DNA of 64,000 nucleotides from Pseudomonas sp. GD03919 (GTDB lineage: Bacteria; Pseudomonadota; Gammaproteobacteria; Pseudomonadales; Pseudomonadaceae). The position numbers and the translations under genes were made by a program. Location: positions 3,720,001 to 3,784,000 of the forward strand of contig NZ_CP104582.1 in NCBI RefSeq assembly GCF_029814935.1, in the 5' to 3' direction. The notes below the pieces were generated by a model. That model saw only the letters and a program-made list of their open reading frames with translations, was not told the origin of the DNA and searched no databases. Shown piece by piece: positions 32,111-47,205 of this stretch (its first letter is position 1; each line of letters begins with the position of its first letter).

Positions 32111-32290
32111 AAAGGCGACCCGAGGGTTAATGCCGATCAGATAAGATTGCCAAAGCGGCCTTTCGTAGGAGCCCCGCCTCGGGGCGAAGCTTTTCAATTG
32201 CGCATCGCCCTGGTTCGCGGCGGGGCGCCGCTCCTACGTATTCGCAGCGGCGACGCTTAATTGACTGGCATTAACCCGAGGGTCGCCTTT
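32111..32290. terminator. Intrinsic terminator of recN/fur, split by a 148-bp element
   Basis: Left arm AAAGGCGACC (32111-32120) pairs with GGTCGCCTTT (32281-32290). Removing 32127-32274 and one CCCGAGGG copy restores AAAGGCGACCC-GAG-GGTCGCCTTT, a bidirectional terminator between the convergent recN and fur genes. The inserted element is itself near-palindromic, so the arms can still meet at the base of a long hairpin. Confidence 0.8.
32127..32274 (+). mobile_element. 148-bp MITE-like element, copy 1, with an inner REP doublet
   Basis: The element starts TTAATGCCGATCAGATAAG and ends TTGACTGGCATTAA; the outer 8 bp are an exact inverted repeat. CCCGAGGG flanks it on both sides (32119-32126 and 32275-32282) as an 8-bp target duplication. 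Inside, GTAGGAGC (32165-32172) and GCTCCTAC (32230-32237) bound two REP-type hairpins in inverted orientation. A second copy of identical length lies at 46195-46342 in the other orientation. No coding capacity; a transposase acting in trans is required (inference). Confidence 0.88.
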
Positions 32291-45604: not shown

Positions 45605-46090
45605 TTACAGGCCGAGGGCTTTCTCGATGGCCTGGATCAGTGCCGGATCGTCCGGTGTGGTACGCGGCGAAAAACGCGCCAGCACACGCCCGTCCTGGCC
45701 GACCAGAAACTTCTCGAAGTTCCAGGTGATATCGCCGGGAAATTCCGCGCCCTCGCCAGCCAGCAGACGATACAGCGGATGGCGACCGGGGCCGTTGACC
45801 TCCAGCTTGCTGCCCAGCGGGAAGCTCACGCCATAGTTGAGGCTGCAGAACGAGCGGATCTCGTCCTCGCTGCCCGGCTCCTGAGCGGCGAACTGGTTAC
45901 AGGGCACGCCGAGCACGGTGAAACCATTGCCCTTGTATTGCTGATAGAGCTTTTCCAGCCCGGCGTATTGAGGTGTCAGGCCGCATTTGGAGGCGACATT
46001 GACCACCAGCACTACCTGCCCCTTGTAGGGCGCCAGCGGCAGCTCCTGACCGTCCAGCGCGCGCAGATTGAGATCGTGAAAGGCACTCAT
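45605..46090 (-). CDS. Glutathione peroxidase family protein
   Basis: A 161-residue thioredoxin-fold peroxidase that reduces hydroperoxides. The peroxidatic Cys is C36 in VNVASKCGLTPQYAG; the catalytic Gln is in VPCNQFAAQEPG and the Trp/Asn in DITWNFEKFLVGQDG. Cys replaces selenocysteine. The Cys in SFCSLNYGVSF is placed like the resolving Cys of thioredoxin-dependent members, so thioredoxin rather than glutathione may be the donor. A bacterial copy of the 148-bp repeat lies between it and slyD upstream. Monocistronic or with the nitroreductase. Confidence 0.95.
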   Translation of the reverse strand: MSAFHDLNLRALDGQELPLAPYKGQVVLVVNVASKCGLTPQYAGLEKLYQQYKGNGFTVLGVPCNQFAAQEPGSEDEIRSFCSLNYGVSFPLGSKLEVNGPGRHPLYRLLAGEGAEFPGDITWNFEKFLVGQDGRVLARFSPRTTPDDPALIQAIEKALGL

Positions 46091-46179
46091 GACGAACTTC
46101 CTCGGCGAATTCAGTGCAACGGGCGCAAGGCCCGTAAACCTTCAAGGCGGCCGCGAATGAGCACGCCTACCTACATGAA

Positions 46180-46355
46180 AAAGGCGCCGTGAGGCTAATG
46201 CCAGTCAATTAAGCATCGACGCTGCCAATGGGTAGGAGCGGCGCCCCGCCGCGAACCAGGGCGATACGCGATTGAAAAGCTTCGCCCCGGGGCGGGGCTC
46301 CTACGAAAGACCGCTTTGGCAAGCTTATCTGATCGGCATTGGCCGTGAGGCGCCT
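46180..46355 (-). terminator. Intrinsic terminator of slyD, split by a 148-bp element
   Basis: AAGGCGCC (46181-46188) pairs with GGCGCCTT (46348-46355) on excision of 46195-46342 and one CCGTGAGG copy, giving AAGGCGCC-GTGA-GGCGCCTT with five T on the minus strand (TTTTTC). It lies 69 nt past the slyD stop. Confidence 0.8.
46195..46342 (-). mobile_element. 148-bp MITE-like element, copy 2, with an inner REP doublet
   Basis: Same length as copy 1 and in opposite orientation. Read on the minus strand it starts CCAATGCCGATCAGATAAG and ends TTGACTGGCATTAG; I count about 13 differences from copy 1 over 148 positions. CCGTGAGG flanks it on both sides (46187-46194 and 46343-46350), an 8-bp target duplication different in sequence from that of copy 1. 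GTAGGAGC (46232-46239) and GCTCCTAC (46297-46304) bound the inverted REP pair. Confidence 0.88.
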
Positions 46356-46423
46356 TGATCGCAAGCTTGAGCTTAGCAGCGGTTGCTCCGTTCGGAACGA
46401 CCGCAAGTCGCCTGACAGACGAC

Positions 46424-46909
46424 TCAGTGGTGGTGACCACCTTCGCCGTGGATGTGACCGTGAGCCACTTCCTCTTCGCTGGCGTCACGCACGCTTACCA
46501 CCGTGACCTTGAAGTTCAGGCGCTGGCCGGCCAGTGGGTGGTTGCCGTCGACGGTCACGTCGTCGCCATCGATATCGCGGATGGTGACGATCTGCATGCT
46601 GCCGTCCGGGCCGGAGGCATGGAACTGCATGCCGACTTCCAGGGTGTCGACGCCTTCGAACATGGCGCGGCTCAGAGTGGCAACCAGCTCGGCGCTGTAT
46701 TCGCCGTAGGCTTCTTCCGGCTCGACGGAGACTTCGACGTCGTCACCGGCTTTCTTGCCGACCAGAGCCTTTTCCAGACCGGCGATGATGTTGCCGGCAC
46801 CATGCAGATAAACCAGTGGCGCGCCGCCAGCGGAGCTGTCGATCACCTCACCGGCATCGTTGGTCAGGGTATAGTCGATGGAGACAGCCTTGTTGGCGGC
46901 GATCAGCAT
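46424..46909 (-). CDS. slyD: FKBP-type peptidyl-prolyl isomerase SlyD
   Basis: A 161-residue cytoplasmic prolyl isomerase and chaperone with metal-binding tail. It begins MLIAANKAVSIDYTLTNDAGEVIDSS, has YLHGAGNIIAGLEKALVGKKAGD (FKBP site), the inserted flap domain with GMQFHASGPDGSMQI, and VDGNHPLAGQRLNFKV. The C-terminal HGHIHGEGGHHH is short but histidine-rich and would bind nickel. The ATG at 46909 has a GGTCTCC-type weak leader; longer in-frame starts lie in the opposite gene. Divergent from the DUF3565-ackA-pta genes. Confidence 0.96.
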   Translation of the reverse strand: MLIAANKAVSIDYTLTNDAGEVIDSSAGGAPLVYLHGAGNIIAGLEKALVGKKAGDDVEVSVEPEEAYGEYSAELVATLSRAMFEGVDTLEVGMQFHASGPDGSMQIVTIRDIDGDDVTVDGNHPLAGQRLNFKVTVVSVRDASEEEVAHGHIHGEGGHHH

Positions 46910-46920
46910 GGGGAGACCTT

Positions 46921-47205
46921 TTGCGAAAGAGAAATGAACGAGCAAGTCTAACCAAGGCCGGCCTGGATTGCGACCCGAGCCCGGACAAACGGGCTGTGCG
47001 TATCGTTGATTTTCGTCAGGACGAGCACGGCGACTGGGTGGCAGTCTTGTCCTGTGGTCACACTCAGCATGTGCGCCACCGACCACCCTGGCAGAATCGG
47101 CCCTGGGTACTCGACCCCGAACAGCGCCAGGCCAGACTGGGCAGCCCCTTCGTCTGCGGCTGGTGTGCCGGGGAGCGGTCGCACGATGAATTCAAGGAAA
47201 TCTAA
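46921..47205 (+). CDS. DUF3565 family protein
   Basis: A small protein of unknown function whose conserved core runs from VRIVDFRQDEHGDWVAVLSCGH through QHVRHRPPWQNRPWVLD to FVCGWCAGE. The Cys/His pattern (SCGHTQHVRH and CGWC) suggests one metal site. The start is uncertain: TTG at 46921 has GGGAG 5 nt upstream and gives 94 residues; GTG at 46996 gives 69 residues without a ribosome site. The stop codon is followed at once by the ackA ATG (TAA-ATG), so it is probably translationally coupled to ackA. Confidence 0.75.
   Translation: MRKRNERASLTKAGLDCDPSPDKRAVRIVDFRQDEHGDWVAVLSCGHTQHVRHRPPWQNRPWVLDPEQRQARLGSPFVCGWCAGERSHDEFKEI

Follow-up and report, generated by a model that had tools for sequence, protein, structure and literature searches.

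The window analysed here, a stretch of 64,000 nucleotides from Pseudomonas sp. GD03919, carries two copies of a 146-bp element that we interpret, with a probability of roughly four in five, as a non-autonomous MITE of the IS4 subgroup, carrying a captured REP doublet as cargo and inserted by an IS4-type transposase into intrinsic transcription terminators. The ends of the element, its target-site duplications, one empty site, the enrichment of terminators among the targets and symmetric tracts at set offsets were directly observed in the genome of the window, and likewise for IS4 of Escherichia coli and IS4-group elements from 16 named genera. These observations come from genome sequences, and transposition itself was not observed.

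Insertion of the element in the slyD terminator

Copy 2 lies within the terminator that stands 3' of the minus-strand slyD gene and has its T-tract on the minus strand (Table 1), and copy 1 lies between the convergent genes recN and fur, both named from their translations. Each is flanked by duplications of 10 bp, GCCGTGAGGC at copy 2 and ACCCTCGGGT at copy 1. The initial annotation had described two copies of the same length and in opposite orientation, and these were indeed seen at 46193-46340 and 32129-32276. By its ends and flanks, the element measures 146 bp, and the proposed 148-bp frame covers the same element with its edges displaced; the 8-bp duplication CCGTGAGG is a part of the 10-bp one, and the copies differ at 11 positions where about 13 had been counted. 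A comparison with Rfam gave no match at the gathering threshold within 46000-46500.

Table 1. Coordinates, in the window, of both copies of the element and of the neighbouring features
Feature	Position	Strand	Remarks
IS4-type MITE copy 2, TAATGCC...GGCATTG	46196..46341	+	146 bp; from the sequence and the empty site in relative L199
Target-site duplication GCCGTGAGGC, left of copy 2	46186..46195	+	
Target-site duplication GCCGTGAGGC, right of copy 2	46342..46351	+	
slyD intrinsic terminator, left half (A-tract and arm), interrupted by the MITE	46178..46195	+	
slyD intrinsic terminator, right half	46342..46356	+	
Copy 2 left terminal inverted repeat TAATGCCAGTCAATTAAGC	46196..46214	+	
Copy 2 right terminal inverted repeat CTTATCTGATCGGCATTG	46324..46341	+	
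REP arm 1, inside the MITE	46232..46255	+	21-mer with 111 genome matches at up to 2 mismatches
REP arm 2, inverted partner, inside the MITE	46281..46304	+	from the sequence
ORF with slyD (FKBP-type prolyl isomerase, named from sequence)	46424..47086	-	true start probably internal
Glutathione-peroxidase-like gene (named from sequence)	45605..46090	-	downstream of the terminator
IS4-type MITE copy 1	32128..32273	-	146 bp
Copy 1 target-site duplication ACCCTCGGGT	32274..32283	-	
Copy 1 target-site duplication ACCCTCGGGT, second copy	32118..32127	-	

Removing the element together with one duplication leaves AAAAAGGCGCC-GTGA-GGCGCCTT, which is the slyD terminator, as had been anticipated. The same empty site exists, to the base, in a close relative (genome G012, locus L199), where the sequence runs through the intact terminator. 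This site demonstrates the insertion and directly provides the target as it was before the event.

The flanking arms could conversely be seen as belonging to the element, which would then have brought the terminators in instead of targeting them, and the element does fold with these arms as one long hairpin. However, the element is conserved whereas its flanking arms change between sites, and the slyD terminator is found empty in L199 and without any MITE in further relatives too. Contradicted by the empty slyD site, this explanation was rejected and its probability is negligible.

The MFE folds of the filled terminator sites of the 146-bp family (18 of 18) keep the outer arms paired, in one long hairpin, which agrees with the earlier proposal that the terminator arms can still pair. 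Terminator insertion as a safe-site strategy is a plausible candidate, although E. coli IS4 also occurs within genes.

Other events were encountered at terminators. In two relatives of the window's species (L203 and L205), the slyD terminator loop contains other insertions or expansions, with IS4-like ends absent by eye. In E. coli 20Y000092, a copy of IS4 between tdk and adhE (L189) has the flanks CCCCAGAAGGGG and CCCCTTCTGGGG, the duplication being inverted on one side as if the terminator hairpin loop had flipped after insertion.

The MITE family and its putative mover

The 146-bp element was found by BLAST at 42 places of the 4.66-Mb genome, 31 of which have both ends, while 11 were left unscored (an insertion splits one, one matches in the REP part only, and the others are degenerate or tandem). 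A duplication accompanies 26 of the 31 both-ended copies; the five without a clean one are L012, L015, L026, L029 and L033, L012 being a terminator by eye. Short, dispersed in many copies, bounded by terminal inverted repeats and target duplications and devoid of a transposase gene, the element has the features of a MITE. A search with the inverted-repeat pattern revealed two more MITE families of ~157 and ~174 bp, which combine different cores with the same ends or near variants of them. Of twelve small loci that end like MITEs, 8 entered the analysis, 7 of them with a duplication.

The inverted pair of REP arms that makes up a REP doublet is present in the 146-bp MITE, in its core only, and many of the listed genome matches of the 21-mer from REP arm 1 fall outside MITE copies. 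Taken together, loci L062-L068 and the 146-bp family display three cores (two REP-like doublets and one CCCTCTCC-type palindromic repeat) between similar IS4 ends, which suggests a repeated capture of host repeats. Some copies are compound: the REP core of one 146-bp MITE (L030 and L073, genome positions 1752650-1754234) is split by ~1.46 kb of DNA that is not part of it, perhaps a different IS with REPs as its target; two units of the 146-bp family stand in tandem at L032 (4466684-4466934), and a tandem pair of 157-bp-family units at L072 (4521828-4522150) has a short flanking repeat in common.

Among the 59 genomes of the genus that were searched, the 146-bp element was matched in two, the window's own and G012. 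Copies L219, L221, L223 and L225 of G012 share their sites, by eye, with L015, L019, L029 and L028. With the empty slyD site of the same genome, these four shared sites point to older copies held in common and newer private ones.

The same inverted-repeat pattern uncovered a resident 1.42-kb element, present in five copies. Its transposase, a single ORF of 452 aa in L074, is 52% identical to E. coli InsG over 442 aa, contains the Nterm_IS4 and DDE_Tnp_1 domains and matches NCBIfam IS4 (NF033592), PF13006 and PF01609; its YREK motif reads YSQRWEIELGYREMK at residue 316. All five copies are flanked by duplications of 9-12 bp, about one helix turn, as in the IS4 subgroup. Both ends carry AATGCCAGTCAGTTAAG, which IS4 of MG1655 carries at one end with a close variant at the other. 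A YREK DDE transposase encoded by a single ORF, helix-turn duplications and IS4-homologous ends place the resident IS in the IS4 subgroup. Relatives of its transposase at 97-98% occur in Pseudomonas oleovorans, P. mendocina and Pokkaliibacter plantistimulans. At the transposase-distal end of the resident IS (L075/L046) as of E. coli IS4 (L076), the terminal repeat precedes its own inverse and a T-run, which together resemble a terminator hairpin that faces inward.

To judge from the similar ends and the common type of target, the 146-bp MITE would be moved by a transposase of the IS4 subgroup. Its right end, AATGCCGATCAGATAAG, is one mismatch away from an end of many other IS4-group elements and differs from the AATGCCAGTCAGTTAAG of the resident IS, so the mover may be another IS. 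The duplications and the IS4-like ends suggest, for the whole unit, a mover other than a REP-associated Y1 transposase.

Terminators, tracts and palindromes in the target

Target sites were rebuilt for all copies taken up that had both ends and a duplication. A strict terminator was defined by a stem of at least 6, an axis at most 3 bp from the centre of the duplication, and an A- or T-tract. In the genome of the window, strict terminators received 18/26 MITEs of the 146-bp family, 5/7 other MITEs and 4/5 copies of the resident IS, that is 27 of the 38 sites. Elsewhere, they account for 43/48 sites of IS4-group elements (16 named genera and two further lineages), or 34/39 without Thaumasiovibrio, which contributes 9 of the 48. 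For E. coli IS4 the proportion is 8/11, or 6/9 when L159, L183 and L184, variants of one raiA-bamD site, are counted once. Over all sites, 78/97 are strict terminators (72/97 with a first scorer that missed tracts paired into the stem), and the non-strict ones amount to 11/38 own and 8/59 other sites. The IS4-group sites derive from 79 loci minus 31 that had no ends, a short flank or no duplication, four of the dropped ones (L078, L103, L104 and L148) being terminator-like by eye; of 15 E. coli loci, 13 have a duplication, 11 of which were retained as distinct. One genome contributes two near-identical sites, L090 and L138, and L123 misses the strict test solely through a 9-base loop.

As a baseline, 299 of 114,950 sampled positions are strict terminators (0.26%), and 211 of 25,810 (0.8%) when only intergenic positions are considered, with genes called by a greedy longest-ORF approximation; the binomial P of 27/38 against the intergenic baseline is ~5e-48. 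The initial annotation, with two of two copies in terminator loops, had called for the share of all copies to be set against the intergenic expectation and had named a majority outside terminators as evidence to the contrary. With 27 of the 38 own sites in terminators, insertion into their loops is the rule and no such majority was seen; the comparison for the 146-bp family is 18/26 against 0.8%. By a crude measure, the 18 terminator copies showed no bias in their orientation to the T-tract.

Such an enrichment might arise from near-random insertion if only the copies in harmless terminators survived selection, since a long hairpin can still form at a filled site and terminators lie mainly outside genes. 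However, two control IS families of the genome, with nine and eight copies, gave 0/17 in terminators (for the eight-copy family the junction itself was scored, the duplication not being determined), and the same flanks moved by 20-120 bp gave 0-6 terminators out of 193 at each offset. Survival in harmless places thus does not explain the pattern. It also leaves unaccounted for the centring of the insertions and the choice of terminators with two tracts, and post-insertion selection was rejected as the cause, its probability being very low. The nine-copy control IS has CAGGCCGTTGAAAAA ends, 4-bp and mostly CTAG-like duplications and a PF01609 transposase with a 388-aa frame in most copies; one copy lies at 1354-2684 of the window, and none of the nine is in a terminator.

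Targeted insertion is centred on the terminator loop, with the A- and T-tracts at set offsets. Sides pooled, A is found outside the duplication at -6 in 81% and at -5 in 75% of own sites, and in 97% and 94% of other sites, with G/C-rich positions between the tract and the core. A near tract exists on both sides in 66/88 sites, and for 131 of the 132 sides it begins 2-5 bp beyond the duplication. The length of the duplication correlates weakly with the A-to-T spacing when this is measured from the centre, with r 0.33 (n 67, P 0.006), and r 0.23 (P 0.08) once Thaumasiovibrio is left out. Spacing taken from the duplication edges (r 0.39, n 66) contains part of the correlation by construction and was replaced by this measure. 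At most, the weak correlation hints that one tract positions each subunit.

Terminators in use also differ from the background set of the same genome, which comprises 193 loci in 464 kb, 65 of them intergenic (a count limited to even loops, with 96 loci and 28 intergenic, was replaced by it). Both tracts are present in 22/27 used own terminators versus 27/65 intergenic background terminators, and a stem of at least 8 in 27/27 versus 34/65.

The sharp A and T positions are what would be expected if the transposase recognized sequence only, as symmetric half-sites made of an A-tract followed by G/C-rich bases, and hit terminators merely as their carriers. The existence of hairpin-free sites with tracts fits this possibility, as does the fact that 8 of the 9 highest half-site scores in the background belong to terminators anyway, so that sequence and structure are not fully separated. 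Nevertheless, above the lower-quartile half-site score, 25/28 own sites are palindromic versus 10/26 in the intergenic background (P ~1e-4, with a matrix built from the same own sites that it scores). Recognition of sequence only is a tenable account to which we give less than even odds.

The pairing of the arms could instead reflect recognition of structure only, the transposase binding an extruded hairpin or cruciform, or a terminator-paused transcription complex, whatever its sequence. Arm complementarity indeed exceeds that of half-site shuffles, with 5.05 versus 3.60 of 8 pairs in own sites and 5.86 versus 3.18 in other sites (P 0.0005 each), and the excess extends to the 8 other non-strict sites (3.88 versus 2.40, P 0.001); at the 11 own non-terminator sites it is not significant (P 0.21). 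In addition, AAA-N14-20-TTT motifs are palindromic at 16/17 own insertion sites versus 5/50 in the intergenic background. Yet the A- and T-tracts occupy set positions, the preference for both tracts is needless for a signal that requires a U-tract only, and 11/97 sites have a tract without a stem and 6 have neither. Structure recognition of this kind is less likely than not.

The sites with a tract and no stem include IS4 of MG1655 and an E. coli copy within an oxidoreductase gene; E. coli IS4 is thus also found inside genes, and its copy inside yicI displays AAA...TTT by eye while scored as neither stem nor tract. As hairpin-free sites exist, most of them with tracts, the hairpin is favoured and not required. 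Five own sites have neither (L010, L016, L019, L037 and L063), which means that targeting is less than absolute, unless older sites have decayed. What the data support is tracts plus a palindrome, and structure alone is unsupported. The original suggestion that the element recognizes the hairpin and not a sequence therefore stands in part: arm pairing does add to the tracts, and independence from sequence is not supported in view of the A at 75-97% of positions -5 and -6 and of the tract-only sites.

In the mechanism that we propose, an IS4-type DDE transposase, from the resident 1.42-kb IS or a relative, would paste the MITE into intrinsic terminators. The preferred target would consist of an A-tract, ~3 bp, a GC-rich palindromic core of 10-13 bp that becomes the duplication, ~3 bp and a T-tract, with the insertion centred on the terminator loop. 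Two subunits may each read one half-site of tract and arm on bent or extruded DNA, and terminators would be used because such a target usually takes this form in genomes and because landing there does no harm.

Implications and known systems

Beyond this genome, it is probable that the whole IS4 subgroup, its founder included, is a lineage that targets terminators and whose transposase reads symmetric A-tract/stem-loop/T-tract DNA. The arm specificity of IS4 would then correspond to the intrinsic terminator, and the MITEs would carry host REPs into terminators throughout a genome, converting these into long hairpins still able to form. For a classic insertion sequence, this offers a concrete target rule that can be tested, namely the loop of a transcription terminator. 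If it is true, a DDE transposon uses a common signal of gene ends as a likely safe harbour. The system would allow the effects of DNA sequence, DNA structure and transcription on target choice to be separated, and in many Gammaproteobacteria, elements with a possible effect on read-through may interrupt terminators.

The closest known system is IS4 of E. coli (insG), which shares with the resident IS close ends, helix-turn duplications, the YREK motif and the same NCBIfam and Pfam models, and for which 8/11 sites are terminators. An older target rule for IS4 is AAA-N20-TTT. Compared with IS4, the 146-bp element is a derivative that lacks a transposase gene and carries REP cargo. Of some members of the IS4 subgroup, the 2008 survey of the IS4 family (PMC2266710) notes a 'spectacular apparent insertion specificity in left and right target arms'; it also describes family duplications of ~10 bp and a relaxed first end nucleotide, and the word 'terminator' is absent from its main text. 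In the open-access literature, none of the titles and abstract beginnings among the matches listed concerns IS4-type elements that target terminators, subscription papers being mostly uncovered. IS231, from another subgroup of the IS4 family, is associated with insertion specificity and target bending, going by the titles of references.

The 146-bp element also resembles bacterial MITEs and REPINs, being short and without a transposase gene, with inverted ends, duplications, many copies and a core made of a REP pair. REPINs depend on the REP-associated Y1 transposase, whereas the ends and duplications of the 146-bp element suggest an IS4-type mover, and this element is usually found in a terminator. 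Group IIC introns insert at intrinsic terminators as well, but these are RNA-based retroelements, while the 146-bp element is a DNA transposon that duplicates its target.
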